Source: Nymphaea colorata (lineage: Eukaryota > Streptophyta > Magnoliopsida > Nymphaeales > Nymphaeaceae). Taken from it: a DNA stretch of 64,000 nt. A program made the translations under genes and the position numbers. Every line of letters begins with the position of its first letter. Positions within the stretch are counted from its first letter, which is position 1. The notes under the pieces were generated by a model. It was not told the DNA's origin, did no database searches, and was given only the letters and a program-made list of their open reading frames with translations. Shown one piece after another: positions 16,815 through 61,110 of this stretch. Location: assembly GCF_008831285.2 (NCBI RefSeq), contig NC_045147.1, positions 11,101,427 to 11,165,426 on the forward strand, in the 5' to 3' direction.

Positions 16815-17110
16815 AGTTTTTCTCCTTGAATTTTAAGATACTGACATTTTGATTGCCAATATGGATTGCAAGGGAAAGAAGACAGCCCGAATTTTAAAGG
16901 CTGCAATTAGCATCCTTCCTAGTTGTGTCTAGAAATATCAAGGGATCAATTTCAGATGGAGGGTCCGACAGCAGGCCATTGCCGCTGCATCCGCTCGATT
17001 GTCGATAACCGGTCCTTAAATATCACGAGTATCTCAAACAGCTAATCAAACCCATAAATTTCCAAGCACCTTTTAGTGGAATGACTTGGATATTTAGATG
17101 CTCTCCCCCA

Positions 17111-18447
17111 CTGATTCCACGGGAAGAAGAAGTCTAAGAAACTAAAGAAAAATACTATCAGGTATATAACTTAGTTCGAGGGAGGTATATCAAAGTTGCA
17201 ACTCTTCTGAACTTCAAGCAGGCAGGTCGTCTGGGAAGTTAATAGGCGGAGAACCTCATATCAGTTGCATTATTCTAAACCTTCTCATTCAAATTCACTG
17301 TAATATTTTTTTTTTCCCCATCTCAATGTTAGGTAATTTTGGCAAAGAAAGATGGCAAGGAGCTTCCTGATATTTCTTCTCTGGCACTTCACAGCAAAAG
17401 GGCCTTTCACAGGTTTGAGAAGCTCAAACCAAGATTAGAGATATCCATATTGCTCACTCTAGACCATAAACAAATGACACCAACAAGCACAAGCTGTCGC
17501 GTTGGCTGGAGAAGATGGTTCAGCGTTAACCTAGAAAATGAGCACTAAAGTTATCATGGCATGAAAAGACTAATTACACAAGAAAGAGCCAGCAAATTTG
17601 TAATGTCACACAGTACCCAGGTCGACTAAATAGCTAGACTTATTGAGATAACAATGTAATAAGGGAACAGTCCAGCATTAAGTCCACAAGTAGGTGAGCT
17701 ACATATATAGTTCAGCTCACAAAAAAGTTGTATGGCTATGCAATCTTGACCCCCATCTTCTTCCTTCCCCCCCTGCAATCAGAAACACTGATTCCACGGG
17801 GAGAAGAAGTCTAAAAAACTAAAGAAAAATACTATCAGATATATAACTAAATCCTTCTGCAGCAATGGCAAAGGAGGCTCCTGTGAACATGGTTATAACT
17901 TAGTTCATGGTATATCAAAGTTGCAACTCTTCTGAACTTCGAGCAGGCAGGTCGTCTGGCAAGTTAATAGGCAGAGAACCTCATATCGGTTGCATTATTC
18001 TAAACCTTTTCATTCAAATTCACTCTCATGTTTTTTTTTTTTTGATCTCAACGTTAGGTAATTTTGGCAAAGAAAGATGGCAAGGAGCTCCTTGATATTT
18101 CTTCTCTGGCACTTCACAGCAAAAGGGCCTTTCACAGGTTTCAGAAGTTCAAACCAAGATTAGAGATATCCATATTGCTCATTCTAGACCATAAACAAAT
18201 GACACCAACAAGCACAAGCTGTCGAGTTGGCTGGAGAAGATGGTTCAGCGTTAACGTAGAAAATGAGCACTAAAGTTATCATGGCACGAAAAGACTAATT
18301 ACACAAGAAAGAGCCAGCAAATTTGTAATGTCACACAGCACTAGGTCGACTGAATAGCTAGACTTCTTGAGAGAACAATGTAATAGGGGAACAGTTCCAG
18401 CATTAAGTCCACAAGTAGGTGAGCTACATATATAGTTCAGCTCACAA
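17111..18447. repeat. Tandem duplication within segment A (two copies of about 650 bp)
   Basis: Copy 1 (about 17111-17735) and copy 2 (about 17789-18447) share CTGATTCCACGGG at the start, the GCAGGCAGGTCGTCTGG motif, and a GGTGAGCTACATATATAGTT end. They differ at scattered positions and small indels. The other segments hold this block once, so the doubling is specific to A. Confidence 0.9.
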
Positions 18448-18582
18448 AAAGTATGCTAATGGAAAAAATACTCCTTCATTCATTGAACAAGACAAGGGGC
18501 CTATGCCGAAGCAGCATTGGCATATTTCCACAATTGCTCTTTATTGAGATTTCAAGTCCTGGGATGACTCCAGAAATATGTT

Positions 18583-19046
18583 TTAATTTCCTTGCGTTGC
18601 ATGGCCCTTTTTCATCTGCAAAAATAGTTTGTAGTCTAAGGAATAATCAAACACAAAGGAAAGAATAGAGGCAGTAGAAACAATTTCATAAGCAGTGTCT
18701 AAACTCACATTTACTAAGCATGCTTTTTGGTACTGAGAACCCTGAAGAAGATGAATACAAAAGATATGATTTGTCAAGCATCTTTAAGAACAAAAAAATA
18801 AGAAAGCTAGAAATTTCAATTACAAAAAATCATAATGATACTAGAGAATCAGAAAAAAGACGCAGTAGGTGAGAGTTTTGTTGGACAGGAGATTGGATAA
18901 CCTTGTCAAGTCCATGAATGTAATTACAGTATGCAAAAACAGAGGCAAAATTGCTTTGGCTCTTTCCAACATAGTGATGGTAACCATGGTATTCTACACC
19001 TCCATAGGTTGGAATAGATTTAATGAGACTCCAGGGGAAATCATAC
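18583..19046 (-). pseudogene. SMO1-type methylsterol monooxygenase, 3' exons only (copy A)
   Basis: Three exons match the intact gene: exon 3 at 18902-19046 (145 nt, the same length as the intact gene), exon 4 at 18709-18741 (33 nt) and exon 5 at 18583-18615. Exon 3 encodes YDFPWSLIK, EYHGYHHYVG (third histidine box kept) and KSQSNFAS. The frame is open through all three. The break is at the exon 3 splice acceptor, which reads CCTG instead of CCAG. Exon 5 ends early (MKKGHATQGN then stop) compared with the intact copy's 24-residue tail. No exon 1 or 2 was found upstream, so this is a 3' gene fragment. Some substitutions at conserved sites (FIPFYGG to SIPTYGG) agree with loss of constraint. 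Confidence 0.85.
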
Positions 19047-21085
19047 CAGGATAAAACATGGACAGATGTTAACAGTTGAAAAGGCAAAAAACTGCAGCAA
19101 TTGTAAATTACAAGACTGAAATGCCTTTTAAAGAATATAAGGTAGAAATATTAAACAGACAAAATACTGCAAATTCTTGCCCTAAAGAATAGCTCTCAGG
19201 TTTTCTTAGTTCACTGATTTACCCCATGCCATTATGATTCAACGTAATGACAAAGGAACCAGGATAACATCCAGGCTTGGTTTAGTAGCTGCAAATGAAA
19301 GAGAAGCTGAGGATTTGAAGATGTTTTATTGAGCATTTATATGTTTTATTGAGCATTTATATGTTTTATTGAGCATTTAATGCCTTCGACCAATCACACT
19401 TAGTTTCCCAGCTCTGCTTAAAAGCATACATTTGGGAGATGGATCATTTTCAGCTACTTCAGGGAGAGGGCGCTATTACAAATCCATTCCCATCTCCCCA
19501 CTCATTTCTCCAACAAAACTCTTTCTCCTAACCAGAACCTTAGCATTAAGCCACTCCAAAGCAGCATAACATTTAAATTACAGGAACTCGCATTTCATGC
19601 TCGGTGACTTGAGAGGAAGATACAAGCCCAAACCCTCACTTGAAGAGTTACAAGAGAGTCCAAATGAAACAGAGATTTTCCTTCAATAAAGCAGGCAACC
19701 AGCCCCAAACAAATTGCCAAGCAGCCCTAGTTATAGGCCAGAAGGTAATCCTTACTGAAACATCAAGCTGGTGGCTCTTCTGTGTACAAAAGAAATCAGC
19801 TATTCTCTTGCCAATTTAATCATATCTATATTTCAGAAAATGAATACTGAATATTTTGAACAAATTCATAACTACCATGTGCACTTGCACACATTGGTGC
19901 AATACTTCCACTAGCAGCTTCAATAAATTAACGATCAAATTTCAGATGATGCACAAACTCTTAAAATTGCAGTGGCATTATAATGACAAAATAGGGCATG
20001 ATCTGAATGGTACCAACAACATGAGGGAATTATAAACTTGAATTTCAACATCAAATCCTTGCTCTGAGTGCAGATGTTTGAAAAACTGTTGGTTCCTTGC
20101 TAATTTGTCTGTTGATAAACTTGAGCCAAAAAGAAGCATGCATCCTTTTCAAGGTTTGTAACTTTGTATCGATCTACTGTTTCACTGTGTCCAGTAACCA
20201 GCGGAAAAAGTTGGCTTGCTTATCTCCTTTCTCTAAATGTCCTCATAATTCTTCTCATGTTTTTTCTGCAATTTATAGCTCCAAGTACTTTATCTTTAAT
20301 CTTTTTTCAATAAACCAAGTTAATAAATTCTTTCACCAAATTCAATATCATTATTAATATGCATTCACAATTATCCACCTTATACTGTCTGCTCAGACTA
20401 ACAAAACCTATGCAAGGCACTGTCACCACATAAATGTTGATACCCTCATCAGTCAAATAAGGCCAAAATTATGGTGCCAGCAGCCCACGTTTGCCTTTTT
20501 CAAAATTTTGATAATCGTCTTCATATCCCAAACCTTAGTTGGTTTTAGTTTTTACAGAGGACAACCCTAGAGAAGTGAACATCCAGCATTATCAGGAATT
20601 ATGAAACCAAAATCTTGAAGTAAAGTAGAGAAAGTTCAAGGCACCAAATAAAAAATATATCACTCAATCAATTTGAGAAAAACATACAATGTGTGTCTAT
20701 GTCCATTTAAAATGTCTCAAGAATACCCACACCACCCAAGCCTTCAAAAGATGCTGCATGCTAATGATCTAGGTGGTACCGCCCCCCTCCTCAGAATCCA
20801 GCCAAGTCTATGCAGAAAATGAGGATCCAAGATTTTTTGTTGGATCTATAAACGTGATCTGGATCAAGACTATGCTGACCATAAATTATTTAATCCTTAT
20901 AATGCAGGGATGTATAAGGGTTTGAATGTTGCCCTAATTGAGATCCCAATGGTTCATAACATATTGATGCCTCAGCCTGATGGAGTGGCTCAGTGAGTCA
21001 GCTTCAGTTCTATCTAACCAGCTAGCATTTCAAACCATAGCCATAGGCGCTGAACTTGTGCTTCATCCCTGTAACCAATATTGGC

Positions 21086-22574
21086 TGCCCATATTTGACC
21101 TTTTCGTAAGATAGCACCATAATCATCTATCTTTTATCAATTACTACAAATGAAATCTCTCTAGTTCCCTTTGATAGACACAAATTGTTCTCATGCAAAT
21201 TTGTTGTCCAAAGCAAAGGAGAATTATGCTACATTCAGCCAATGGCTGCAGAGGAGAACGGTGAACAAGATATATATACATATATATATATAAAATCGTT
21301 CCCACTAGCTGGATAGCCAACAAGCTTTATGTATTCAACTACCTTGAAACAAACAGATCATGCTTTTAAGAGTAGTTATTGTTCATGGTATTAACACGAT
21401 CTGAACCTAACACATATTTTCTGCATGCATCTGAATTAGTAAGAGTAGCAAATACCTTCAAATTTAAGATGCAGATTTGCATCGATTAAAGAAAAAAAAT
21501 CAGGCCGTTGCTTACATATTGAGAATCCTTATTGCTAAAGGTTCTACCAAATATTCTGACCAAGACCCTTCATGTGAAATGTGCCTGATTGTATATATCA
21601 TGCTCCCGTCAAAGTCTGATACTTCTTCACATTTCTTTCTTCTTTGTTTGCACTTATGAAGCTGGTAGGAAAATTACATCTGCAGCCTCTAAAACGAACT
21701 TGGCTTGAATGAAACAGCAATAAAAAGAAAGGGCAAGTTGTAAGAACAATAAATGGCTTCTGAAAAATCAATATCACATGTCCCAAATGCTTTGCACAGT
21801 GCACACCTAAGTCACATGGAGTGGGTACAGACACAGATATTTTAACAATTGTGAATAGGGAGATATGATGAGGTATATATACACATATAACATATATAAA
21901 TGTGTGTGTGTGTGTGTGTGCAAAATTCCACAAGAAGTATGCAAAATTAATATAAAACAGCTAACAAAAATGCTAACAAACAGGTGAAAAGTATGACTTG
22001 GAGAATTAACACATAAAAACAACATGCAAAAATTTGAAATTAATATGCAAAAAGTAAAAACTAACATCATTTATTACAAAATGTGTCCAAGTGAGTCGTC
22101 ACACCAGCATCCATGTGTTGGCATGTCGACGCATGTCATTAGCACTTAGCAGCATTGTCACAGATATTGCAAGCTTTTTGTAAATTTCACAATATCTATG
22201 GGAAAAACAAGTGAAACGAAAATATGGGGACAATTTTGCGAGATTTTGAAAATCTCAACGAAAATGAATAACTCGCGATTTTTTATGATTTTTTAATTCT
22301 TCATTAATTTCCCATTTATTTCATTTTTTCTAAGTTTTAGGATTTTTTATTTAAAAAAATTACCAAGATTTTTCCAAAAAAAATTCCCGAGAAAAAACAA
22401 GTTCTCAAAAATATACCCAAGAAAAAACTTGCCGATATTTTCCCAAAAACGGTATTTGCGATAATGCTTAGCAGCTCACCATGATGTTATAGAAAAGGCA
22501 CCTCTTTGTGCAGTTCCAGCATAAATAGCTTTTTTAACTATTAGATTCCACTTTCACAGAACTATTACCAACTG
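21086..22574. other. AT-rich intergenic DNA
   Basis: No gene was recognised. It contains a TA-rich run near 21270-21292 and a (GT)n run at about 21901-21920. Confidence 0.45.
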
Positions 22575-23040
22575 GCATGCAGTCTAAGTCACATGGGTAC
22601 TTCAGTAAGGTCTACGTACCCGTGTCGCCGTACTTGTACCCAAAATGGATACTTTGACACTTGAGTACCTATAGATCCAAACTGCTTAATTTTACTTTGA
22701 TTTAATTTTTTCCACCTTACTTTTTATTCTATTCTTTAGATGTGAAAATTCGATTGATGTTCATATTTGACTAGGGGCCTGCTTGGTTGTCCATATGTTT
22801 AAAGTTTTTCATAGGTTTCTTAAACACACTGCTCCAAGAGCCGTTTATATATATTTTCTATGTTATTTATTTGTTTATGTTGATGTATATTTTTTATTTT
22901 GATACATATTTTCTAAGTATTTCTTATTGTTTATATATATATATACGGCTGTACCCCCGCACTCAAGTTTTTTGAAAATGGTCAGTACCCGTACCCGCAC
23001 CGGCACCGGTACCCGTACCTATGTAACATAGCATGCAGTC
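22575..23040. mobile_element. TIR element with 10-bp target-site duplication (MULE-like)
   Basis: The element body is 22585-23030 (446 bp). The left end TAAGTCACATGGGTAC and right end (reverse complement TATGTTACATAGGTAC) form a 16-bp TIR with 4 mismatches. A perfect direct repeat GCATGCAGTC lies immediately outside both ends (22575-22584 and 23031-23040). A 9-11 bp duplication is the Mutator-superfamily signature. Sub-terminal GTACCCGTACCC repeats are present and there is no transposase, so it is non-autonomous. Relatives occur at 45550-45841 and 57856-58204. Confidence 0.75.
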
Positions 23041-23125
23041 AGGGTTGAATTTCAAACGGCATGTTTCTCAACGAGATTCTCTATAAACCAATGGCTTAAT
23101 CATAATTCATAAGTACATAATCCAT

Positions 23126-24056
23126 CTCTATTCTCTTTTCAATTCATGATCCACATAAAAATAGGCAGCTCCGAATCTCCACCTCCTTCCCTACCTCATT
23201 TTTTATTTGAAACATTAGCATGAACCCACATTCTGACAGCGCTATTTCTTATCTGAAAGCATCATTAATGTGTCGTCTCATGTCCAGCTATAATTCTTGT
23301 GAATTTTCATCTCACCATTTTATGTTTGTCTAGGTCCTCATTATGCTTCTTCATTCTTTTTTTTCTATTTGCATAGGACAACCTTCTAATTTGGTCTTAA
23401 ACAAGTTCAGCTGTAAATTATTTAAACCATCTCAAGAGATCTTTCAGTGTTTCCCCTGATTCATGACATCCCTGAGAATTGAGATCTCCTCTAACACATC
23501 CACTGTTGACCTTATCCTTCTCGTTACTGTGCAAATATTTTAATGTGTCGACTTCTATGCGAGACATTTTCTTTCTCATTTCTTCACTTCTCTATTCTCT
23601 TGGTTAAGCTTTTTAATTTATGATCCACATAAAAATAGGCAGCTCCGATTCTCCACCTCCTTCCCTAACTCGTTTTTTATTTGAATCATTAGCATGAACC
23701 CACATTCTGATAACACTGTTTCTTATCTGAAAGCATCATTTATACGTTGTCTCATGTCCAGTTATAATCCTTGTGAATTTTCATCTCACCAATTTAGTGC
23801 TTGTCTAGGTCCTCATTATGCTTCTTCATTCTTTATTTCTATTTGCACAGGACAACCTTCTAATTTGGTCTTAAACAAGCTCAGCTGCAAATTATTTAAA
23901 CCATCTCAAGAGATCTTTCAGTGTTCTCCCTGATTCATGACATTCCTGTGATCTCCTCTAACACATCCACTGTTGACCTTATCCTTCTCGTTACTGTGCT
24001 TATATTTTAATGTGTCGACTTCTATGCAAGACATTTTCTTTTTCATTTCTTCACTT
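23126..24056. repeat. Tandem duplication, two copies of about 465-474 bp
   Basis: The two copies share GATCCACATAAAAATAGGCA, GAACCCACATTCTGA, TCAAGAGATCTTTCAGTGTT and GACATTTTCTTT in the same order, offset by about 474 bp, with scattered substitutions and small indels. Copy 2 holds a 79-codon ORF that is disrupted in copy 1, so coding function is not supported. Confidence 0.9.
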
Positions 24057-26795
24057 GCTAAACACTTGATAGTTGCTTACTGTGGATTCACAAATATAAA
24101 ATTTTAATGTAATAGTCACTGGGACACATCCAACCGCCACCAACCATCAAAAATAGAGTTATTGAAATTGACTAAGATGACTCGTTGACTTGGTCTCAAC
24201 CTGATGAAAGAATGGAAAACCCAAAAATCAGCAAGAACCAACCAACTCATGAAATGACCAGGCCGAGTCATCTGAGTTTCGACCAAGTCAGCTGAGTCAC
24301 AGGCTGGTTTAATCAAGCCATTCATGTATACCTTGTATATGTTACACAAGTGAACCATGTAAATGGTATCATACCATGTATCATGTGAGTGCGCATGTTA
24401 CACAGATGAACTATGTAAAGATATTAAAATTTGTATATACACCGGGACACACACACACACACTAAGAATGTCACTATATTATACGAAGATGCACATACAT
24501 ATCCTAAAGATGAAATTGTATCAAACATATAACAATGATTTATGTATATCCTTATACATACTTTGTAATTTGTATATCATGTCAATGTTAAAATGGATTA
24601 AAAAGAAATACTTGCTTTACAAAAGTGAATGCACTTTATGTGAAAAATAAAGTTTTCAATACAAATCTGAATCATCGAGTTGACCTAGCAATCACAACTC
24701 AATTCACTCCAACTCTGGAGTCACTGGGTCATAAAACCTTAATATAAAGTCGTAATCAACCAAAGAATCAGGATATATCTCATTGCAGGAACTTCAAACT
24801 TAGTTATGACATCTAAATCACTAACATTATGCTGTTCTAAAATTCTTCCATCTCTCTACTTCTGTCTAACATATGTGATTGCTTTCACTTCATCAAGTCC
24901 AAGGTAGAAGTAGATGTCAAACCTAAGTTAATAAAATAAAAGAAAATAAACAAAATTACAGAAGGATTTCAAGAGAATGCATCAAATTTTGAAGAATAGG
25001 TTGAAAACCATGTTAGTAACAAAATCTGTTTTCTTCACAAGTAAAAAAGTTCACTTTTTGAAAAGCAGTAATATTTTTGACAGAATCAGGTATACAGAAA
25101 AAAAGTCCAGTTTGATGGGTCTACTTAGTAATAGCACTTGAGACAGAACCAGGTATACTGAAAAAAATGCTTTCCAACAATTTTGAACATCCACCTCTTA
25201 GTATACTTATAAACCTTGAACTTTTTTATACATATTAAATATTCAGAAACAGTTTTTATAAAACGAAAATTCATTGGTTATATCCACCAAATCATAAAGA
25301 TGTACTTTTACACAATGTTGTATGCCTCGTTTGTAGCTTCTTGGCATATGCTTTCAATTTTTATACATAAAAGGTGCTAAGTGACCATCTCATATAAGGA
25401 ACTCCATATGCTTGGACAATGTGTTTACCATTCTCACCAATAGGTTGGCCAGTTGTAATCTCTGATCATCAAAAAACTTCATCACTTTTAAGACACGATT
25501 TGGTCCATGTTTTTCTTGCTTGTGCTGTGCTCTATATATAATTATATATATAACACACAATAACATCTATTGATAATTTACTAGCCTCAATTATAATTGT
25601 ACAGACTAATAAAAGAAGAACATCCATGGTTCGTTTCTGCAATAAACATAATTGTGGCTTCCATTTACCAGGCATCCAAGCAAGCAACTTGATAAAAATT
25701 AATCATATAAGGGACATCGAAAAGAAAAATATATAAATAAGACAAATATGCAAACAAAAACTTAGCTACGTGATAAGAACAGTTATCATATTGACAATAT
25801 ATTAAGTATCTATTTAACAAGGTATTGATGGAATCATTCAATATTTTCGACTTCTTTAAATTATTCATTGCAAAGAAAATTTTCAACTGTAGTTGCAGAA
25901 ATGTCTGTTCAAACCCAGGCATCTTCATCATCCTCAATTATGTCATCATTCAAAAGGACATTGCATAAATTAATATCAAATACATATTGGTATCAACAAC
26001 ACTCACTTGGTCTTCTTCCACAGGTAAGTCATTGCACATATGGAAAGGCCCTAAGGACTATCTTGATGACCACTATCGAATTTGAATCAATGAAATTACA
26101 TAGAATGCTTGTTGTGCTTGTGATGCTAATTAAAAGATTGTTCATCCATACAAGTGAAACATATTTACAAATGTGAAGTTCCCCTCATCTTTTTTTATGC
26201 CCCATTGTGTGACATAAGAACATCAAACCAATTACACTTGAATAAAACATATGTCATCGTGAAACCATATTTGACTACCAGAACTGCAATATGTGATTTC
26301 TTTTCCATTTTCAGCTTCTCAATAGATTAAGCAAGACCAACCAATGTGTCATTTCTGATGTTCATGCCATGTGTATTTCCCATCTCATGTAGGCTTGGGT
26401 AGGTACACTTTCACTGACTATGTCTCCAAAGTCCACACAGAAGAATCTACTCTTGCATCATGTATCTTCTGAGAAGCTAGATAGGAATTGTAATAATGCA
26501 CAAAATTTTAGATTGTTGATTAATATTGTATAAATCCTTTCTACAAATTAGGACTACAATGTAGCAGCTAGTTCTCAGGTTTTTGGTCATGAAATTCACA
26601 TCCCGCCGTTAACATCATGAAAAGAGAAACAGGCAAATATCTAATTTCTCGATTTTCAGAAACAGAAAACATATCTAAGTTTGTTGAAAATGAACTGTGT
26701 TTTAGTAGCCGAAAATTATAAGAGATGCCACTATAAACAATGCAGAAAATGAACATATACAGGAATGAAGGTCCTCACCGGAAACAAAGATTGAG
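24057..26795. other. AT-rich intergenic DNA
   Basis: No recognisable gene. A GAGTCA/GACTCGG-rich stretch (about 24160-24310) resembles a dispersed plant repeat. A direct repeat AGTCACTGGG occurs at about 24115 and 24720, but no inverted termini accompany it. A (CA)n run is at about 24447-24464. Confidence 0.4.
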
Positions 26796-26938: not shown

Positions 26939-26949
26939 GGCCTCCTATG

Positions 26950-30464: not shown

Positions 30465-33400
30465 CATAATAGAAAATCATCTCTCTACCTGCTCCCTGAG
30501 CAGGGACAAAGGAGAGTTGCATACAGAAATCCTTTCTGAAATTTCATCAAGATTGAAAAAACTTGCCCGATGTTCACAACAAAAGGAAAGATCTCAGGCA
30601 ACCAGAGAACCACCATTTCCCTCTGGCATTGTTAGATCAGACACGAATATCCCTGGTCAATATGAAGATCACTAACAAGAAGACATTCTACCATCATCTG
30701 TTCAATAAAGGTCCTGCCACCAGAATCTGATGATACTTTCCTGTCCAAGATAACACCATCCAGCCATAACAAACCAACGCAGATGTAACCAACATTGACT
30801 TTGGCTGACACCACTTCAACAATTAAGGTAACCATTCATCTCTTTATTCTGCCAAAACAGACTAGAAACTTTGGGATGGAACCAAATTTTCAAGGCCGTA
30901 TCCATGAGAAACTTCCGTATTACTTGCCATCTTTACAAAATGTATGCACTATCGTGGGCCTGATGTAGCCATTTAAAGGCACACAATGAACAAAAACATT
31001 GAGATAAAGAGAGATAAACTTAATTAGGGCCGTGGATGTAGACTCATACAAGTAGAACCATCGATTCATCATATAAATTAATTCCTTGAGAGAACGAACA
31101 TTTGAGCCTCTACACAATGCAAATGTTTGCGTGTTTGAAATAAGAAGACTGCTTCTCGTGAAGCCGATTAAAAAAGTAAAATGCCTAAAAAATATATTTA
31201 GAAAGATGAAGAAACTCACTTTTCATCAAGATTAAAAATTTCCTTCACACAATGGCGTGGTGGCTTGTAAGGGGTTCCAATTACACATGAAATAGTACTG
31301 TGTTTGACCTAGAACATCCAGTGTGCTGTGCTCTAAATGAATTGATATCATTTGAAAAACACTCGTATCATGTTGTACATAACCTACTGATTTATTTTTT
31401 CCTTTTGTGTCATATTCGTGTCAATTTATTCCAAACTTGTTAGTTATGTGAGCAAATTTAAGCATCAAAGTTTTGTTTTCTCATTTTAGTGGATTAAGGG
31501 CAATGACAAGTCTAAATAATTTTTGGTAAAAGTTGGAACTCATACTGAGAGCCGATCTCAAGAAGGCCATAACTTAAGGAACAAATTATAGGTCTTGCAT
31601 GTGAAGTTCAATTGCATAACTCAATATGCACTTCGACTTTGCATCCTTATTTGGATGGGATATCTCACTTGAATCACTAGACTTAAACATTTTCTTCAAT
31701 TAAAAAGTTTCAATCTTAACAATAAATTATGGGGCATCCCCAGTAGGCTCGTTTTCATAGTTTGATAAAAGTGGATATAAATTCTTAATTAGACATAATT
31801 TTTTCTGAACTAGGGGAAGAAGTCTTCCTCAAAGATAAATTTACTACTTTTGCAAATGACCCACTACTCGAACAACTATCCTAAGCATTCCTAACATATC
31901 ATGAGTTTCTCAAACAACTAATCAAACCCATAAAGCACTAAGCCTCTATGGAAATGATTGGTCATTAAGATGCTTCTTCTAGAAAGTTGTTTCTGTTGGC
32001 TTCATATCATAGAAACATGTTGGCCGTGGTGCCTTACTCATGGATCCAACACCATTTGAGGATATGGGCCCTCTTCCTTCACTGGTGGGAGCAGTAACTG
32101 TGTTTTCTAAAACATTTAAAATTGTTTCTTTTTTATAGGATAACCGCAAGGTGTGTTAGTTAGTGAAAGGGTGTGGTAGTTAGTGAAAGGGTGTGATGGT
32201 TAATGAAAAAAACAATGGCCTGAGAATGTGATTCTAGAGAGGTCAATAAGCAATATAAATGATAGGAATGATACACAATTTTACAACAGTGGAAACCCTG
32301 ACAAAGATTGCAGCCCTCTGTGGAGCTATGAAATTCAGTAAACCTTGCTATCACTTTCTCTTCCCCTTTTGCTTCCTTCATCTCTCTAATATTAAAGACT
32401 TCATCAAATTTGATTCTGTCACATTATATGCCTGCCTCATCTGCTCAACTGAGACAACTCTCCTTCAGTTTGGCAGTGCAATCCTTAGCTACCCTTTTTC
32501 TTCTTTCTTCCCTTGCAATTTGAAAGCCTGATTCCATGGACAGAAAAGGTCTAAGACCTCACAAAATGCTTCTTTCATATGAATATATATGTGTGCATGT
32601 GACTGTGTGTGTACTCTTCTGCAAATTGGCACATGCCGGCCGTGTGAATGTGGTTATAGACTTGTAGTTTAGTTTGAGGTATACCAAATCTGGTCTTTTG
32701 AACTTCAAGAAGGCAGGTCGTCTAGCAAGTTAGTAGACGGAGAACCTTATATTGATTTCATTAGTTTTAAGGTATTTACTCAAACCTACCGTAACATTCT
32801 TCTTTCATCTGAGAAAATTAGATCCATTTGGTAGACAAGATGGTAAGGAGTTTTTTGATATTTCTTGTCTTGCCATTACACTGTGAGAGGGCTTTTCACA
32901 GGCTTTAGAGGCTCAAACGAGATTAGAGATATCTGTGTTGCTGACTTGAATCCATAATCAAATGACAGCAACAAGGACATGTTGCACGCTGCCTGGACAA
33001 GATGGTTCAGCTTCAACATGGAAAATGAAAACCTAAAGATATTGTCATGACACCAAAATGCTAAATAGGAAAGAGCCAGCAAAAATTTATAATGCCACAT
33101 TACACCAAACTCGGTTGAATAGCCAGACTTCTTTAGAGGTCGTTTGATTGCATTGGAACAGCGCGGAACAGAACAAACGGGTTCTGTTTTGGTAAAATTG
33201 ACACAAACGTTGGACAGAGAACTCTCAGGACAGGCAGGACAAAGAACAAGGGGTATAAAAGGCTCAAGAGTTCCACCGCGTTCCGTGCTAAACCACGGAA
33301 CAGCCTCTCCCGACAGCCTCCCCAACCTCGAGCTTGCCCTCGCCCCATCTCTTCCTCTCCTCCCCCTCTCCCTCCCCGAGCAACTCTTTCTCAATCCATC

Positions 33401-34224
33401 TCCAACAACATCCCCATCTTCTCTCCTTCTCCTCCTCCTCCGTCTCCGCTGGAGGGCGACTGCCGCAGCATCGCTTGCTGCCCCTGCCTGCTGCCGACCG
33501 GTATTCCAGCCTTCTATTCATCTCCAACGTCTCCGTGACCATTTGCATTCATCTATTCCCATCTCTCTCTCTCTCTCTCTATTGTTCGATTCTATTATCA
33601 ATGGTATCAAAAGCCCCTTTTGGATTGTCTGATTTTGAGCTTTGTTGCAAATGGCAACGATTAGGTTACTGGATTTAGGGCTTTTTCCTTTTTTGCGTCG
33701 ATTGTTCTTTTTCCTTTTTTGTGTCGATTGTTCGGGGATTAAGCTTTGCCTTGATTTCTTATCATTGTTCCTGGTACATCTAATGTTCATTTGTCTGTCT
33801 GCCATGAGATGTAGCTGATACGATGATGCGGCTGGCCAGGGATTTAGTTCCTATAGGCTGGAAAAGGGAACTATAATACTATTTAGTTCGCCCAGCTTTC
33901 TCACGTCCTCCAGCCACTTCTCTTCCGAAAATTTTTTCATCAGCAAACTAGGTTGTTCGTGTTTACGGATAGATAAACCGTAAACGTTCTCTTCTTCAGG
34001 TCTGTTGATACATTGGCTGACGTCTTCAATTTTTAGCCCTCTTCAGGTCTATTGATACATTGGCTGATGTCTTCAATTTTTGGCCTGATGGTTGATGAAA
34101 TACTTGGGGTGAGATCGTGAGCCTGAAATGTTAGACAAGGCCGGCCGGTTTAACTTGGAAATCTCTCATCAATGGAATAACATGGAATCGGCAGGCTTCC
34201 CCTTTCGCCTGAATTCAGCTGCTC

Positions 34225-34611: not shown

Positions 34612-34650
34612 ATAGCAAAAATTATTTTTTCATGAATTGATGATCTCTTT

Positions 34651-34651
34651 G

Positions 34652-34693
<42 letters not shown>

Positions 34694-34694
34694 A
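34651..34694. repeat. (CT)n(TA)n microsatellite
   Basis: A CT run (34651-34676) passes into a TA run (34677-34694), inside the Harbinger-like element. Confidence 0.9.
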
Positions 34695-41355: not shown

Positions 41356-41547
41356 AGGGGTGGAGCCAAGTTAAAGGCCAGCATGGGCCCTGACTACATC
41401 TCAATTTTTTTTTTCAAAAATTAGATGTACATTTTAAAAAATTTCACTTATTTTATATAAAATTGTTGAGAAATGATATTTCGGTCTTACTCAAAATTTA
41501 AAAACTTTAATTCAGTCATTTTTATTAAAAATTTCTGACTCAGTCCT
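41356..41547. mobile_element. hAT-like MITE, same family as 2662-2852
   Basis: The left end AGGGGTGGAGCCAAG and the right end (reverse complement AGGACTGAGTCAGAAATTTTT) match the family seen at 2662-2852 in the opposite orientation and at 38618-38799. The target-site duplication is no longer recognisable. Confidence 0.6.
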
Positions 41548-44545: not shown

Positions 44546-44819
44546 TTTCACTTGTTCTCTTGTTCTCACTCTTTTTTTTTTCACCTTTTGTTTGCTTCTT
44601 TGTATGATTTATTTTTCTTTATCTTTTTGCAGACTTTTCGTGTTCTTCAGTGACTACTCGTCACTCAATTTTGTTATTGAATTCCCATTTTGTCGGCTAT
44701 CTCTTTCCCCCCACACACACCTCCCCCACCCCCCAAACTCAACTTAGCTCTCATAGCAGTACCCTAATTCCAGAACAATACTCCTTAATACTCTAACTGA
44801 GGACATGCTTAATATCATG

Positions 44820-45564
44820 GTTGCAAGTCATTTGAAATTCAAGTAGGGAAGTCGTCTAGAAATTTAATAGGCAGGGAACCTCTTATTGATTTCCTCGGAT
44901 TAAACATCCTTCTTCAAATTCATTTTAATGTTTTTCTTTCACATAAACATTAGGTCATTTTGGCAGGGAAAGATCATGGTAAAGAGGTTTTCAATTGGAA
45001 ATTTCTTCTCCTTGACATTTCGCAACAAAAGGGCCTTTTCACGGGTCTTATAAGAAGCTCAAACCAAGATTAGAGATATCTAGATCGCTCACTTGAAACC
45101 ATAATCAAATGACTGCAACAAGCATATGCTAATGTCAACAACTGGCTAATTAGAGAAGAATGAGCCAGCACATTTACAACCTCAAAGAGCTCAAAACTTG
45201 GCTGAATACCTAGACTTCTTGAGGAGCACATTGTGATAGGAACAGTTCTAGCATTAAGTTCCCAAGTTGGTGAGTTACATATATAGTTCAACTAAATAAA
45301 CAGTATGTAAATGGAAATATTGCTCTTTATTGAATAAGGCAAGGGGCCTATGTTGAAGCAACCTTAGCATGTCTTTGCACTACTGCTCATCATTGAGATT
45401 TCAAGTCATGGGATGACTCCTGTAACATTTGTAGATTTCCTTCTATAGACAAGGTCCTTTTCATCTGCAAGACAGTTTGCAATGTAAGAGAAATAATCAG
45501 ATACAAAAGAAGGAAAAATAGAGGCACTAGAAGCAATTGTATGAACAGCTAATTCACGGCAGGA

Positions 45565-45608
<44 letters not shown>

Positions 45609-47180
45609 CACAAAAAAATAAAATGAAGCAAACATTTAAATAAACAAGTCATTTTAAATAAAAACATGGCATGTTAATGAACAATAACTCTAAAAACAGA
45701 ATGAAAACTAAGTTGGAAAAAATTAAATCACATATCATTCAGCAGTTTGGATTGGTTTCAATCTGAAAAACACTCAAGTATGTGTAAATACCCAATTTGG
45801 GTACGGGTACGTGAACCTTATTGAAATACCCATGCGACTTAAATGAATAATATTGAAAGACTCACATTTGCTAAGCATGTTTTTCGGTACTGATAACCCT
45901 GCAATAGATGAATATAAACAGAAACATAAGATTTGATTTGTCAAGCAGATTTAAGAACAGAAAGAGTAAGAAACCTGGAAATTCATTGAAGAAATCATGA
46001 TAACCAAGATAGAGTAGGTGAGTTTTGATGGCCGGTAGACTGATTAACCTTGTAAGTTCCATAGATGTAATCACAGTATGTAAAAGTAGAGGCAAAATTG
46101 CTTTGGCTCTTTCCAACATAGTGATGGAAATCATGGTATTCTGCACCTCCATAGAATGGAATAAATTTATTGGGGCTCCAAGGGAAGTCATGCCTGGGTA
46201 GAACACAGGACAGATGTTAACAGTTGATAAAGGCAAAGAAATATTGTAGAGCAAGTTACAAGGCAGAGATGCCTCTTGAGGCATATAAGCAACGAAATAT
46301 AAGATATTGCAACTTTTCTTGATAAACAATAGCTTTCAGATAGTTCTCGTTTTATATCATGCCATGATATTTCAACACAATGACAAAGGGGAATATTGAT
46401 ATTCAGAAAGACCGTCTACTCAAGCAAGAATCTGGGAAGCGGGATGATACCAAAGTGCTGCAGTATTGATATTCAGAAAGACCATCTCTTTGGTTGTTAG
46501 AAGGAACAAAGGAAACTACAATAAATAAAGCCAGTTGAACATTTCTAAAGTGAAAAAGGGGAAAGAGACAATTCAATTTCAAACTTCTCTAGAAAATTCT
46601 GTCGTTTTGCCTTATTTTTAGAACAGTTTGCACATTCATGATGCATAACATTATCTGAATGGTAGCAACAAAATGAGGGCACTCTAAACTTCCAGTTCAA
46701 CGCCAAATGAACTCTTCGCTTCTAATCCAAATGTAGGACACACTTTTTGATTTTCTTGCTTAATATGTCTGCCAATAAACTTGCGCCACGATTACCGAAG
46801 ACAACCACAGAGAAGTGTACATCCAACATTATCAGGAAATTATGAAACCAAAATCTTGAATTAAACTAGAGAAAGTTGGAAAGCGCCAACTAAAAATTTA
46901 TAACTCAAGCAATTTGAAAACGTAAAATTTGTGAGTCCCAAGGACACCCACACCACGAAGCCTTCGAGAAATGCTGGATGTTAATGATCTAGATGGGACG
47001 CCACCACCCTCTTCAGAAACAAGCCAAGTCTTTGCAGAAACGAGGATCAAAGATTGTTCAATCTTAAACATGCTCTCGATGGAGTGGTTCACAGAGTCAG
47101 GTTCAATTCCATTTAATCAAGCTGGCATTGGACAAGATGGTGCTCAGCTCATGCTTCATCAACATAACCAGTATATATAT
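44820..47180 (-). repeat. Duplicated SMO1 segment C (3' half of the intact gene)
   Basis: This block is collinear with A and B from the AGGGAAGTCGTCTAG motif (about 44845) through exons 5, 4 and 3 to the ACCCACACCACGAAGCCTTC end (about 46945-47170). It contains the only copy whose exons all keep frame and splice sites. Confidence 0.8.
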
Positions 47181-50489: not shown

Positions 50490-51959
50490 CCTCTGACTGA
50501 GTGACGAGTAGCAGGGTGGTACAGGTGCGAAAGGCGGAAAGAATGGAGGGGCGCTCGTCCGTCTCCCTGTCTCTCTTTATGCTGCTGCCACCGATGATCT
50601 TCGTGCATGGACGGCGGAGGAACCATTAATGTTGACGGGCGAGGGAGACTGATCCACCAACTCCTGGAGATTTAAAAAAAAAGGAGTTGGTTCTCTCGAG
50701 CTTCATTCATAATCTGTCCCCTGGCTGCAATGACAGCTGCAGTTGAATTTACCATTCAGAAACACTTCTCAGTAAAGCAGCACAGGTAAAGATTTCAAAA
50801 GTTCGCCTTGTAAATTTTACAGTAGAAAGAAGCAGGAATTCTTCTTCTTTCTCGACTACCATTCTGCATGCTGTCTTTTATGAAGAGCCGGCTTGGAAGA
50901 AATGCCTATGCGACTATGAATGCAATACGTTGGTAGAACGCTATTTCGAGAGAAAGTGCTCTACGAGGTAGAACTTGGACCTGCTTCAGAGAATTAGTAA
51001 CTTTCTTTGAATGATGCATTTTTCTTGTAAATTTTTTGAAACAATTGTTTTTTTTTTCGTAATTTTTCTAACAGGAGCTATGTGTTTGCTAAAATGATAA
51101 AAACTTAATTTAATTAGTGATAGAGTATAATGCTGAAAAACAATTGTTACTAATTTTCTCTTTTGTTAAATTAATAGCACATTCACTTGAGACATGGTTA
51201 TGTACACCGAAGTGCACAGTGCACAACGCATATGGAGATGTGGATAATGCAAAGGTGCAGAGACTTGTGCATATAACGAGCTTCATATTCACTTTGACCA
51301 CCTACTTTATAGTGCTTACAAAAAGGGAGACCATTGCTAATTAGAAATGAGAAAACTTGATTTGACTATAAGCGAATGACAGGCCTGAAAAATGAAATTT
51401 ATCTAAAATAATTAAGCAAGAAAAAATAAATATATAGGAGAGAAACTAGTCCAAAGAATTCAAATAACAAAAAATTTAAAAAGGAAGGAGTCAAATAAGA
51501 AGCAAAAAAAAAAAAAAAATCGGTGTGCAGCGTGGGCTCAAACCTATACACAATGATGCAGCTAGATAGCCCCAGACTTAGGGTGGGGGAAGGGATACTT
51601 CGGCTCTTAGTCAGCTGATGAGATTTCCTTCTGCTCACCCAAAAATATTTTTTTGATGCATCTCCTCATCTTAATTTAAGAGACACGAGCTTCTTGTTGT
51701 AGATTGGATCAACTATGCACATTTCAGATATTAGAAAGCAGAAACATATTGTGCCCATTTTCAGAGATAAAAGAAATCTTCTAAATTCATTCAACCTGAT
51801 ATTTATTCTTTATTCTAGGACGAGTTCATCTTTTATTCAAGGCTGTTTAAGCAAGATGAATCGATGCCATTTGAAAAGTACATGTATTTCCTTCTATCTA
51901 ACTCATTCATTTGCTTTTATAGTTTTGTTGTACTTGTGTCATCTCTTATGAAGATAAAC
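50490..51959. other. SMO1 upstream region and intergenic DNA
   Basis: 50490-50640 is GC-richer and probably 5' leader and promoter of SMO1, but no clear TATA box was found on the minus strand. A small hairpin (CCAACTCC ... GGAGTTGG) is at about 50655-50690. Beyond that, AT-rich sequence with nothing recognised. Confidence 0.4.
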
Positions 51960-54900
51960 TCTGCTTACATCCCCTTGCACTAGAACATGCAAAATGATCT
52001 TGATGTCGTCTGAAAAATAGACGTACTGCATGTGTATTTAACTCCCTTATTTCTTTCCTTTTTTTTGTTGTTATATTGGTGCCGTTTAATCATAGAACCA
52101 AATTTTAGCATAAAAATTTCGTTTTCCATTCAAGCGAATCAAGGGCAAATTAAGGCAAGTCTAAACATTTGTCAGCGAAAATAGGAACTTTTGCTGACAA
52201 AACTGAAAAATCTAGACCCATTAATTTTTACAGGCAGTATGCACTTTGATCTGACAGCCTTCCTTGATCAGTTGGGCGTAGTTTTCACTCCATCAATAAC
52301 TGTAAAGAATTTTCTTGAGTTAAAAGGTCTCAATCTTCCCATTAATAATAAGAATGAGACCTATCCCCGACAACCACAGAACGCTGGTAGGAGCTCTGCG
52401 TAGAGACCACTTGCATGGGTCAATCTTTAAGGCTGACATCGATCTGACCTTTATTGCTGAAGATGGTCTAATCTTTCAGGCAATTTGGTGATGGAACGGA
52501 AAAGACTTACAATGAGACTGAGGGGTCCTCTATTTTTTGTATTTTATTTTTTATTTTAACAATACCGAGTCGGGTTCTTCTCCTACCAGTATCGAATAGA
52601 ACATGCTGAACAAGATTTTCTTCATGTAAAACCTGCTCGATTTAGATCAGGAAAATCTTATGGATTTTATGAAACCATGTGCTATGGCTCGAATACGTAG
52701 TCTTTCGATAGGAGCAGTTGACAATGGAATCCGATTTTTCCCATTATTTTCGTATCCGTAATAGTGCGAAAAGAAGGCCTGGCTCCTGGTTGTTCAGGAA
52801 TAGTGGCGTTGAGCTTCTCGACTTGACTAACCCGCAAGTCTGATCAGCTATACTACTTTGAGGAAAAATAGTCATCCAGCACAAGTGGATTTGATATCGA
52901 AGGCTACCATAGATGTACCAAGATATTAAAATCATGGATCTTTAGTCCAGACTCTCCAAAAACAGTTCTTTGGTTTTCAAAATGTAATGCAGATCTAAAA
53001 TCCTCAGTTGTAGAATCCATTGTTTGCATCAACATTGGATTCTATCTAACGCAGACTCAAGTTCGACCTCAAATTTGAGATATAGAAGTTATCAAACTTA
53101 GCCCTAGGGATTTGCAGGACGTGGACTTCTCCAGCTGTTCATGGATGCTCTGGCCTCTTACTCATGCAGCCCAATGAATGCATCCGGATGCATGTGTGAC
53201 AGGTCTAGATGGCCAGAGGATTTCAACTCTTCAATCGGGAATTTGTATTTTTACTGTACACTGACCATTAATTTTCGGTCTGCAAGGGTGTAACTCTCCT
53301 GGTGGCAGATTACACAAATATCGAGGCCTATTCTCCAGTAAAGTCTTTTTCTAAATTAAAAGTGGATATGAATGTTTGCTCAGATATAATTTATTTTGAA
53401 CTTGCAATAGTTGACTTTGCTCCAACTGACCATGGCTGGGAGGTTGGTGGCTTCAATAAATATTCTCTTTGAGGAAAGGGCATTGGCATAAGAGATTATC
53501 AGATGCATGTAAAAGTGTAGCATATTAAACCCCACTTGCAACACCTTTCTTATAATTTTCTACATACACAAGGGAGTAAATACCAGAAACATTTGGAATT
53601 GTGCATTTTTTTTTTTAGAAAGAATACCAACCTCTGGCATGCCATGTTAGGAGGTCGCCCACCAACTCAGAGGAAAGTGATGTCTCCACAGGGAAATCAC
53701 TTAGTGAAGGGGACCAAACGCCTTATGTGGCACCATTTGTTCTTAAGAGCGTAGCGTAGCTGGTTGGTTTGAAGAAAGACAAACATCTTCAATTGAATTC
53801 TAGTTGGTGGTACTCTTTTGAACTGCAAACGGTGGCATGTACAATACTCAAGTTGAAGGATGTACCGTAATACTACATCCCAAAGCAACCCTAAACCCTA
53901 AAAGAGTTCGAAGGGAGGTGGCATTTGCCTCTCTTGTGCTGCCTTGTTTGACATCATTCCTTGGTAGCATGGAATTTTACCTCATTATGCCATGATTTTC
54001 TCATTTACTCGGCCCAGCAACTATACAAACACTTAGCAAACCAACGGAAGAAGGAATCATTTTAACATGATAATGCAGGTGGAGTAAGATGTTTTCCATG
54101 GAACCTTGGAATTATTAGTTCCCTGCACTGAAGCTCCCACTTCAATGTCCTTGGAACCATTTCTATTACAGAGAAAACAACAATCTTATTGAGAATACAC
54201 AAAAATGGGGCTTCAAAAGTAATTTATATTCTTCATGCCAAAACATCATAAACAACAATCTTATTGACGGCACCCAAAATAGAGCTTCAGAAGTCATTTA
54301 AATTCTTCAAGTCAAAATATCAGTGGTAGAGATACATGGGTGCTGGTGTGGCAATAGCGGAGATAGGTGAGGGCTGACGTCGGCCACTGCCGCATAAGTC
54401 CATTAAAACTTTCATGGAAAAAAAATCAAAATTACATTATGATAATTAAAAAGTAGATAGGATGCCTGCATTTGAGACGTGGGCTAATGACTCAAGTACC
54501 AAAAAGTCCTGACTCCACCATTGCAAACAGGCTTTCATTTTTCTCAAAATATAGGTATCAAAGATTAAACTAGTCTTTCTCCGTCTTTAACATCATGAGT
54601 TAATTTGCAGTCAAAGATGGACAATCTAGCTAGGGACAGATTCATAAGCAGTAGCATCGTTCAGGAGCCTCACTTTGGCTAAGCATGCTTTCTAATACCT
54701 ATAACCCTTGGAGAAGATAAACGAAGATAATTCATTTAAAGCAGATGCGACAATTACTTTTTTTTCCTTATTTTTCTTTTAATCATCATTCATGTTGGAT
54801 CTGACAGTGCAAATTAGATAGTTGAATGTTGAATCTAGCATTTTGTAGCTCTGCACGTCCATATAGAATGGAATGAATTTGGTGTGGGCAAAACTCGTGG
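51960..54900 (-). repeat. Duplicated SMO1 segment E (most decayed)
   Basis: Sequence at 52090-52360 (GGGCAAATTAAGGCAAGTC, GCAGTATGCACTTTGA, TAAAGAATTTTCTTGAGTTA) matches 31460-31720 of segment B. 53330-53420 matches 31745-31810. SMO1 exon 4 and 3 remnants lie at the end in the same order and orientation as elsewhere. Identity is lower than between the other copies. Confidence 0.6.
54675..54900 (-). pseudogene. SMO1-type methylsterol monooxygenase, exon 3-4 remnants (copy E)
   Basis: Exon 4 is 54675-54707, still exactly 33 nt with AAG acceptor and GTGAGG donor. It encodes GYRY, then an in-frame TAG where the other copies have a sense codon, then KACLAK. Part of exon 3 survives at about 54851-54895, encoding THTKFIPFY-like sequence before similarity is lost. 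The rest of exon 3, including the histidine box, is gone. Confidence 0.7.
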
Positions 54901-55084
54901 AGTGATGTTACGGTTGGTAAAGGTGAATCACTGCCTCACATTTATGAGCTTTCACTGCTTTTAGGTCGAGCACCATAAGTTGAGAATACACGAATCTTAG
55001 CTGCGTGTACCCATGCCTACATTGGTCCCCAAACATTTCAAGCTACTAAATTCTTTATTTCCAAAATATTGGCATACCGTGTGA

Positions 55085-56243: not shown

Positions 56244-56306
<63 letters not shown>

Positions 56307-57695: not shown

Positions 57696-57855
57696 GGCAT
57701 AGTTGTCATCACATCTCATCAAGAAAATGTTGAAGAGATTTTTCTCTTGTACTTTTAGATACCGACATTTTATTGCCAATATGGATTACAAGGAATAAGA
57801 GCAGAGCCCATTGTAAAAGGCTGTGATTCACATCCTACCTAGCTGTGCCTAGATC

Positions 57856-58204
57856 TAAGTTACGTGGCTAATATAGCTATTAAAATGGGTATGAACATGA
57901 AAACTTTAAAAAATGTGGGTGCAGGGATACAAGATATATGGTATATATGCAAAATAGCACAAAAAAAATCAAAATGAAAACAGCATTTGTATAAATAAGC
58001 AAAATAAATTAAAACATTACATGTTAATAAACAGCAACTCTATAAAAAAGAATGAAAACCGGGTTAAAAAAAATAAATCAAGTAAAATTAAGAAGTTTGG
58101 ATCAGTTTTGAGGTAAAAAATACGTATGTATTTTAAGTACCCACTTTAAGTAGGGGTACAACAACAAGGGTATGTAGGCATTACTGTAGTACCTATGTGA
58201 CTTA
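57856..58204. mobile_element. TIR element in segment D, family of 22585-23030
   Basis: The left end TAAGTTACGTGGCTA and the right end (reverse complement TAAGTCACATAGGTACT) are inverted. Segment A is uninterrupted here (GTGTCTAGAAATATCAAGGG), and the D flanks (GCCTAGA on one side, GCCCCAGA on the other) look like a diverged target-site duplication. Non-coding, with GGGGTACAACAAC-type sub-terminal sequence. Confidence 0.65.
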
Positions 58205-59169
58205 GCCCCAGACATACCAGGGGATCAACTTCAGATGGGTGGGTCTAACAACTGGCTAGCCATTCTCGCTGCATTCATCTAATTGTCAACTACCAGACGG
58301 TCACAAGTATCTCAAACAACTATTCAAACCCATAAAGCACCAAGTCTTTAGTGAAATTATTTGGATATTTGAATACCTTTTTTACGAAGTTGTTTGGCTA
58401 TGCAATATTGGGCCTCCTCCTTTTCTCACCTTGCAATCTGAAATAACTACACCACGGGGTAAAAAGGTCAAAGAAACTCAGGAGATGCCGATTAGATATG
58501 TAACTAAATCATGCTGCAAAATTGGCATGCGCAGACCTGTGAAGTGTGAATGTGGTTATAGATTTGTTCATGATATATCAATGTTGCAAGTCTTTTCAAC
58601 TTCAAGTAGGCAGCTCATCTTACCACATTCAAATTCATTGTAATGTTTTTCCGAATGTTTGGTCATTTTGGCAGAGGAAGATGGTAAGGAGATTTTTGAT
58701 ATTTCTTCTCCTGGGAATTTCACAGAAAAAGGGCCTTTTCATAGCTTTCAGAAGCTCAAACCATGACTAGAGATATCCATATTGCTCACTTGAAACCATA
58801 ATCAAATGACATCAACAAGCACGTATTGTCGAGTATACTGGACAAGATGCTTCCGTCTTAAACATGGAAAATGAGCACCAACATATATTATCATGGCACC
58901 AAATGGCTAATTAGATGAAAGAGACCGCACATTTATAATGTCATAAAGCACCAAACTCGGCTGAATGGCTATACATCTTAAGGAGCACATTGTCATAGGA
59001 ACAGTTCCAGCACCAAGTCCGGAGTTACACACATAGTTCAGAATATAAAAAGTATCCTAGTGCAAGTACTCTAGGAGAGATGGCTGAGTGGTTGATAGCG
59101 ATTACTCTTTATTGAATAAAGCAAGGTTCCTGTCGAACCAACCTTAGTATATTTTTGTACTTTTACTCT

Positions 59170-59688
59170 TCACTGAGATTTCAAGTCCTGAGCTGAGTCC
59201 TGAAATATGTTTAATTTTCCTTCTATAGACCAGGTACTTTTCATCTGCAAAAACAGTTTCCAGTGTAAGAGAAATAATTGAATAAAAAAGAAAAGTACAA
59301 GCACTAGAAACAATTCTATAAGCAGTATCTAAAAGACTCACATTTGTTAAGCAGCTTTTCGGAATTGATAACCCTTAAGAGGATGAACACAAAAGTAAGA
59401 TATGATTTGTCATGCATCTTTAAGAACAAACAGAGTAAGGAACCTGGAAATTTCAATTATTGATTGAAGAAATTATGATAATCCTACCGAATAAAAAAAA
59501 ACACAAAGTAGGGGGGAGTTTTGATTGCCAGAAGATTGGATAACCTTGTCAGTTCCATAATATAATCACAGTACGTAAAGATAGAGGCAAAATTGCTTTG
59601 GCTCTTTCCAACATAGTGGTGGTAATCATGATATTCTGCACCTCCATAGAATGGAATAAATTTGTTGAGACTCCAGGGGAAATCATAC
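59170..59688 (-). pseudogene. SMO1-type methylsterol monooxygenase, 3' exons only (copy D)
   Basis: Exon 3 is 59545-59688 (144 nt, one short of 145) with an intact CCCAG acceptor. It encodes YDFPWSLNKFIPFYGG and EYHDYHHYVGKSQSNFAS, the most canonical exon 3 in the window. A one-base deletion near its 3' end (in the codons for YIYGTD) then shifts the frame. Exon 4 (59342-59373) is 32 nt, also one base short, with a resulting stop. Exon 5 (59170-59244) is full length and encodes a tail closely matching the intact gene (MKSTWSIEGK ... DLKSQ). Exons 1-2 would lie about 3.5 kb upstream (about 63 kb), but none is recognisable there. Confidence 0.85.
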
Positions 59689-61110
59689 CTGGGTAGAACA
59701 TGGACAGATGTTAACAGTTGATAAAGGAAAAAAAATTGCAGAGGTTGTAAGTTATAAGCCTAAAATGCCTCTTTAGGCATATAAGCAAGAAACAATAAAT
59801 AGACAAGATACTGCACATTTTCTTCCTAAAGAATAGCTTTCAGATTGTTATTTTTTTTTAATGAGAATTCAGCACAATCACAAAGTAACCAAGGAAAATA
59901 TTTAGGCCAGGTTTGGTAGCTGTAAAATGAGGATCTGAAGATGTTTCATCAAACATTTAATGCCTCCAATCCATCATATTCAGTTCATCAGCATCTCAGA
60001 AGCATGGATTTGGGAGATAGGATTGTGAGAGCAGAGATGAATGTGGAAATGGACCATTTTCAGCTACTTGAAGGAGAGGAGGATGTTAAGAAATCCATTA
60101 CATATCTTTTACATCTCCAGTCGTTTCTCCATCACAAACTCTTGCTCTCAAGCAGAGCCATAGCATTAAGGCACTTCTATGGAAGTACAAAGGTGACCAT
60201 TTGAACAAAAACATGGCTACCACTTCTGGTGCACAAATCGCTGAAATACATCCACTACCATCTCCCACAAATTAATGATCAAAATTTCAGTTGATGCACA
60301 AATTCTTAAAATTGCTGTGTGACTATAATGACACAATATGGAGCAACTACTGAATATTGCAAAACCTCCCTAAGTTACACTTTCCTCTTCTAGTGCTTTC
60401 TGCCAAAAGATTTGCCTACGCTATATAACAATTTATTTTTGAACCAAAGCTCTTCACTATTGATAATCAGAAAGACCATCTCTTCAAAGGAAACTAACAA
60501 TTGTTAGAGAAACATGAACACTTCTAAAGTTAAAAAAGGGGAAAGAGACAATTCAATCACAAAGTTCACTGGAAAATTATCCACTCTTTTGCTTTATTTT
60601 CATCCGAGTTTGCACATTCACGATCCAATAACATTGTCTGAATGGTAGCAACAAAACGAGGGGACTCTAAACTTCCAATTCAACATCAAATCTTTGTTCC
60701 TAGTCCAAATATTGGGCCACCAGTTAATTCTCTTGCTTAATTTGCCTGTCAATAAACTTTAGCAAAGAAGATTATATCCTTTTCAAGGTTTGTGTCAATC
60801 TGCTATTTCATTGTCTCCAGTAACAGTAGGAAAAAGTTGGCACGTACCTCCCCCTATAATAATTTCCTCATAGTTCTTTCATATTTTTTTCGTGTGGTTT
60901 ATACTGCCAAGTATTTTCTCTTTAGTTCCTTTTAATAATCCAAGAAAATAAAATTTTTTCAACTAACTTCATAGGATTATATATTTGGATTCACAGTCAT
61001 CCACCTTGTACTTTATTTTCTGACTAACAAAAATCTACAACAGGTGCTGTCACAACATAATGCAGCAGATACCATGACGAGTCAAATCTAAGGCAAAAAT
61101 TATTCTGCCA

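Follow-up and report, generated by a model that had tools for sequence, protein, structure and literature searches.

A tandem SMO1-like gene array in Nymphaea colorata and the probable origin of its incomplete copies

Do gene fragments clustered around one intact gene record repeated truncated copying, or are they the recognisable ends of longer genes? This question is raised by a 64,000-nucleotide stretch of Nymphaea colorata DNA (C10:11101427-11165426, hereafter the window), in which a first-pass annotation had described five collinear 3' segments of the plant sterol gene SMO1 (4,4-dimethylsterol C4-methyl oxidase), with a single intact gene, here called copy C, among them. To this window we added 40 kb of flanking sequence on the left and 140 kb on the right (244 kb in total; positions outside the window are given in window coordinates), and the assembly of 407.8 Mb in 783 contigs served as the search space for genome-wide comparisons. 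The locus contains nine SMO1-like (C4-methylsterol oxidase) copies, arranged head-to-tail over ~125 kb, all on the minus strand and in the chromosomal order A, B, C, E, D, F, G, H, I. We conclude that it is very probably a tandem array built by whole-gene duplication, including at least one duplication of a two-gene block, and followed by piecemeal decay.

The array and its nine copies

The five blocks of the window form the left part of the array, while F, G, H and I lie to the right, outside the window. Eight of the nine copies were found by tblastn with the C protein in the 244 kb, and E was added from DNA-level matches. A whole-genome search with exons 3-5 of D as query returned 13 rows, of which 11 fell in the array and the others at C2 and C5; E was undetected by this query. 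The locus thus consists of adjacent homologues in one orientation with few copies elsewhere in the genome, as expected of a tandem array, and it mixes intact frames (C, F and I) with disabled copies (A, B, D, and H with a stop in exon 3).

The collinearity described for the window was largely confirmed. Self-BLAST of the window linked A, B, C and D by collinear, same-orientation off-diagonals at ~70-80% identity. Exon 3 was detected by tblastn in these four copies, whereas exon 5 gave clear protein-level matches in C and D, weak ones in A (E 0.16) and B (E 0.36), and clear DNA-level matches in all four. Introns 3 and 4 are retained in the alignment of A-D, and intron-2 sequence is common to the copies. 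The fifth block, E, is real but weak. The ends of the blocks as first drawn are not the ends of the duplications, since homology extends to 25.1 kb in A, ~42.2 kb in B and ~70.7 kb in D; in C it goes beyond exon 1 (50.5 kb). Because introns and flanks are common to the copies, tandem duplication at the DNA level is supported over retroposition, as the first-pass annotation had held, and the copies do not fit processed (retroposed) pseudogenes.

Copy C is intact, with four introns of 90, 3550, 150 and 401 bp that are all bounded by GT-AG. Its protein, the one covered by the whole-protein Pfam scan among the array copies, scored 96.7 bits against FA_hydroxylase (PF04116, cut-off 31) and carries the histidine boxes HRLMH, HRVHH and HDFHH; a search of PDB sequences gave no match to C at E 0.1. 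We call the gene SMO1-like from its likeness to plant SMO1 sequences and to a gene on C2 rather than from a named database match. Intron 4 of C measures 401 bp versus 95 bp in F and holds an insert, probably a short transposable element, with relatives at 57934-58207 and, in opposite orientation, at 22583-22740. Elsewhere in the window, no match to C exon 1 rose beyond shuffle level (best 26.8 bits, versus up to 29.7 in shuffles).

Exons 1 and 2 had been claimed to join to C alone. Yet exons 1-2 of D are present ~5.6-6.3 kb beyond the window edge, across an intron 2 of ~9.9 kb, and D is collinear with F in all eight listed blocks, which reach from the 3' flank across exons 1-2 as far as the 5' flank. 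With a one-base deletion in exon 2, the donor of that exon lost, and further lesions downstream (Table 1), D is a five-exon pseudogene.

Copy B, whose 3' flank begins at 31.3 kb and whose exon 4 has lost a base at its start, resulting in a frameshift, retains the 3' half of exon 2. This remnant stands in the expected order and orientation, has a GT donor, and its alignment runs into intron 2 to 39937. It scored 74.0 bits versus a best of 31.1 among dinucleotide-preserving shuffles of the window, 180 of 200 of which gave any match. A further piece of intron 2 was found at 39,040-38,890 (E 6.5e-10). On the 5' side, F 101757-101948 aligned with B 41960-42161 (E 1.2e-13, 65% identity); because the F query matched only F and H genome-wide, in a search too insensitive for the 65% identity of B, we do not regard this block as a dispersed repeat.

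In copy A, exon 3 is open and exon 5 contains a premature stop. The comparison of A with H gave 8 rows, the furthest reaching 25,130; they are collinear save for the duplicated 3' flank of A, which matched twice. The last piece of A before 25,130 has H as its sole other genomic match, and 24.17-24.53 kb, also within A, belongs to a dispersed repeat. Copy E shares pieces of its 3' flank with B, and its likeness to I comes from three short matches near exons 3-4, together with a weakly supported node in the tree.

Outside the window, F encodes an intact frame of 315 aa in which the usual stop is gone, so that it extends several codons, and I an intact frame of 314 aa with an inferred downstream exon-4 donor. 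Both carry the three histidine boxes (HX3H, HX2HH, HX2HH) that also occur in C and in the C2 gene. In G, exon 1 is present and exons 3-5 are so at least in part, while exon 2 was not found by tblastn with the C protein. Between its exons 1 and 3 lies an element (105912-111849) bounded by identical 377-bp end repeats (105,916-106,292 and 111,476-111,852), with TCATA on both outer sides, which is apparently a very recent insertion of the long terminal repeat type. The F-G block (92.9-118.4 kb) is repeated as H-I (120.5-159.7 kb) at 80-91% identity, so two genes were copied together at least once.

H, which also retains part of exon 4, lacks exons 1-2, yet sequence is retained on both sides of them. 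F and H align at 85-91% over the 3' flank and onward into intron 2; the alignment ends at F 95,525/H 123,948 and resumes at F 97,636/H 126,797. Exons 1-2 of F fall inside this gap, and the comparison of D with H shows the same gap over exons 1-2. A stretch within the gap of H, probably a transposable element, has relatives at ~ -12.8 to -10.0 kb. Read most simply, these alignments suggest that H was copied whole and lost exons 1-2 later.

Table 1. Coordinates of array features within and next to the window
Feature	Position	Strand	Evidence or remark
Copy A	16786..25130	-	tblastn, DNA searches, alignment
Direct duplication inside A 3' flank (666 columns, 87.5%)	17109..18450	-	self-BLAST
A exons 3, 4, 5	~19046-18902, ~18741-18709, ~18615-18541	-	alignment
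Copy B	31337..42163	-	tblastn, DNA searches, alignment
B exon 3	~35615-35487	-	in-frame deletions (alignment)
B exon-2 remnant, 3' half	39988..40139	-	search with C exon 2
B 5' flank piece	41666-42161	-	comparison with flanks of other copies
C 3' flank, common to A, B, D	44700..45389	-	DNA search
Copy C, intact five-exon SMO1-like gene, 302 aa	45390..50489	-	tblastn, Pfam, gene model
C exons 1-5	50489-50160, 50069-49744, 46193-46049, 45898-45866, 45464-45390	-	gene model
Insert in C intron 4	45586..45841	.	DNA searches, alignment
Copy E, heavily decayed	51856..54977	-	DNA searches, alignment
E exon-4 piece (41 columns, E 0.005)	54706-54666	-	DNA search
E exon-3 piece (38 columns, E 4e-4)	54887-54850	-	DNA search
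E intron-2 piece matching copy I	54977-54917	-	DNA comparison
Copy D	57700..64000, on to ~70.7 kb outside window	-	tblastn, DNA searches, alignment
D exon 5	59244-59170	-	alignment
D exon 4	~59373-59342	-	1-bp deletion (alignment)
D exon 3	~59688-59545	-	1-bp deletion (alignment)
D exon 2, outside window	69,870-69,551	-	tblastn in fetched flank
D exon 1, outside window	70,292-69,963	-	tblastn in fetched flank

Descent and coding constraint

The gene on C2 is SMO1-like, has 304 aa by its model and shows the same five-exon layout. In a tree of exons 3-5 and introns rooted with this gene, A, B, C, D, F and H (98.1/99) are set against E, G and I (82.4/80). In the tree of exons 1-2, C, D and F are grouped (94.2/86) and then joined by B (95.3/96), separate from G and I (99.9/100). 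Identity to the C2 gene amounts to 66% for I, 58% for F and 57% for C. When the C2 gene was used as outgroup, 51 changes were assigned to C versus 17 to I, and 50 to F versus 18 to I. The pairwise ratios of nonsynonymous to synonymous substitution rates were 0.46 (C-F), 0.39 (C-I), 0.34 (F-I) and 0.17 (I-C2), and below 1 in all four pairs tested (Fisher p 4.3e-5 or less). C had been taken for the parent of the other copies; since the C2 gene is more conserved and C evolves fast, C is not that parent and would not be the ancestral gene, and it is probably still under constraint. The array may represent a lineage-specific side branch of SMO1 with two gene types in tandem, the intact, fast-evolving C/F type acting on a specialised sterol substrate unlike that of the conserved C2 gene. 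We consider this unlikely; if C or F did have a new substrate, the locus would offer a modest instance of diversification among sterol genes.

Coding constraint on the copies of the window was assessed by a third-position test of all six pairs among A-D. In exons 3 and 5, an excess was observed in C-D (19/28, p 0.0002) and B-D (19/31, p 0.0013). Both of these pairs include D, so that D at least stayed coding after its split.

At C5:9788000-9792000 there is another SMO1-like remnant with pieces of exons 3 and 4 that resembles the C2 gene; its exons 1-2 were unmatched within the 4 kb fetched. Two more clusters of FA_hydroxylase matches lie at C7 2.20-2.36 Mb and C11 15.47-15.54 Mb.

The 3' copies had also been proposed as sources of antisense or chimeric transcripts, a suggestion for which the sequence offers no support. 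All copies lie on one strand, and no antisense 21-mer of the C coding sequence, extended by 240 bases of 3' flank, was found in the stretches of A (16815-21100), B (31337-40140), D (57739-61112) or E (51856-54904). Sense 21-mers in common with the same C sequence numbered 20 in A, 5 in B, 29 in the window part of D and 0 in E.

Weighing the origin of the incomplete copies

In the history that we propose, SMO1-like five-exon genes with a long intron 2 would have been duplicated whole, probably via unequal exchange, and single copies would then have decayed through small frameshifts, internal deletions and repeat insertions. With introns 3 and 4 so short, exons 3-5 remain recognisable as one compact block. 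Exons 1-2 sit 1.7-9.9 kb upstream, across an intron 2 that gains insertions, and so they were overlooked (B), lay beyond the window (D), or are gone or undetectable (A, E). The array, the exon content and lesions of its copies, the collinearity of D with F and the absence of exons 1-2 between the retained flanks of H are observed; we infer the mechanism of unequal exchange, the loss in H after its duplication, and the originally complete state of A and E.

Several observations weigh against this history. At A, no trace of exons 1-2 was found up to 31.3 kb by DNA searches or Pfam read-through scans, and A may have been born truncated. No sign of a third-position excess was seen in exons 3 and 5 for A-B (15/40), A-C (11/41), A-D (14/37) or B-C (13/31). 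Inclusion of exon 4 gave 20/32 (p 0.0007) for C-D, 19/37 (p 0.018) for B-D and 15/43 for A-D. The test is thus silent for A and says little for B. The tree of exons 3-5 has weak nodes, among them 81.2/79, 82.4/80 and 87.4/83. E is discordant in that its 3' flank resembles B and its exons lean to I. An apparent 5' flank match of E to I (55798-56020, E 1.7e-31) was dropped because it proved to be a dispersed repeat in the genome search, so that E is left without valid 5' evidence and may have arisen as a truncated copy. A flank block of B (40764-41006) was likewise dropped, since the same stretch matched the reversed-sequence control.

These reversed-sequence controls gave matches below E 1e-3 in A 20.9-25.2 kb (1), upstream of B (4) and in the flank of I (1), and none upstream of E, in A 25.2-31.3 kb, in the flank block of F, with C exons 1-2, or in D 61.1-70.4 kb. 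Read-through Pfam scans yielded nothing over the curated cut-off in minus-strand frames of 21200-31099, 38000-42500, 55100-57600 and 61100-64000, and nothing at E 0.01 on the plus strand of 22800-31100; they constitute a weak negative, as they also miss the exon-2 remnant of B.

The closest alternative is that unequal exchange, recurring with its breakpoint inside intron 2, generated copies that were without exons 1-2 from the start. A and E, in which neither exon 1 nor exon 2 is detectable, fit such an origin, and A in addition lies at the 3' edge of the array, the expected place of a truncated end copy, and is without sign of coding constraint. However, D is complete, B retains a portion of exon 2 together with a piece of 5' flank, and H is without exons 1-2 yet both sides are retained; the claim that the 5' exons were lost each time is contradicted by the same three copies. 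The first-pass annotation had itself named full-length copies with exons 1-2 near A, B or D as the finding that would overturn its reading, and this finding holds for D and in part for B. Moreover, the intron-2 homology ends at differing points among the copies. If only 3' parts had been copied, no exon 1-2 or 5' flank sequence should occur outside the parent; it does occur, and in the window only A and E are compatible with such an origin. We therefore regard this alternative as quite improbable. Unequal exchange remains plausible as the mechanism of duplication, consistent with the recurrence of F-G as H-I.

Capture and spread of a gene fragment by a transposable element of the Helitron or Pack-MULE kind would also keep introns, and repeats do occur in and near several copies. 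Since the nine array copies stand in one orientation with shared, collinear flanks, and C2 and C5 are the only other places where the exon 3-5 segment was found, we give this origin hardly any credence. An assembly artefact such as unmerged haplotypes is extremely unlikely, because the aligned copies differ by ~9-35%, with distinct insertions and lesions, and are too divergent for two alleles.

Whole-gene duplication followed by decay thus best accounts for the locus, and the picture of one intact gene surrounded by 3'-only copies arises mostly from the window edge, the long intron and decay, A and E perhaps excepted. The correction of this misleading picture illustrates that fragments in a short window may represent the compact ends of genes that are themselves long. 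The locus also illustrates tandem birth and decay clearly, in that exons 1-2 of H are gone between retained flanks.

Neighbouring features and related systems

Apart from the array, an open frame of 931 codons, stop to stop, spans 13493-16288 on the minus strand. By eye it resembles a plant BED zinc-finger/hAT-like protein, but Pfam assigned no family at E 0.01 when 13496-15916 was scanned in frame. No match to Rfam reached the gathering score.

Several repeats were observed. A dispersed repeat of ~450 bp, present at 55658-56020 and 141570-142020, occurs on many contigs (at least 44 rows, with 40 of 1591 first-look candidates scored). A short repeat family with copies in both orientations, probably a small transposable element, lies at 2664-2853, 38654-38791 and 41355-41541, and also near -0.8, 116.2 and 178.5 kb. 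Tandem repeats are found at 8249-8599 (116 bp x3, 99%) and 23135-24092 (~450-490 bp x2, 89-91%).

Like plant SMO1, C, F and I have frames of 302-315 aa with the boxes HX3H, HX2HH and HX2HH, and C exceeds the PF04116 cut-off and has five exons as in the C2 gene model. C and F stand apart in being 57-58% identical to the C2 gene, compared with 66% for I, and are more changed than I. The locus is of an ordinary type and a member of the known class of tandem arrays with pseudogenes. In a review of tandemly arrayed plant genes, unequal exchange is the usual mechanism and several members are pseudogenes (PMC7565063). The head-to-tail copies and pseudogene members described here resemble such arrays, and nothing essential differs. 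What the present array adds is an insertion-prone, long intron 2 that parts the 5' and 3' halves of the gene, so that its decayed members resemble 3' fragments.

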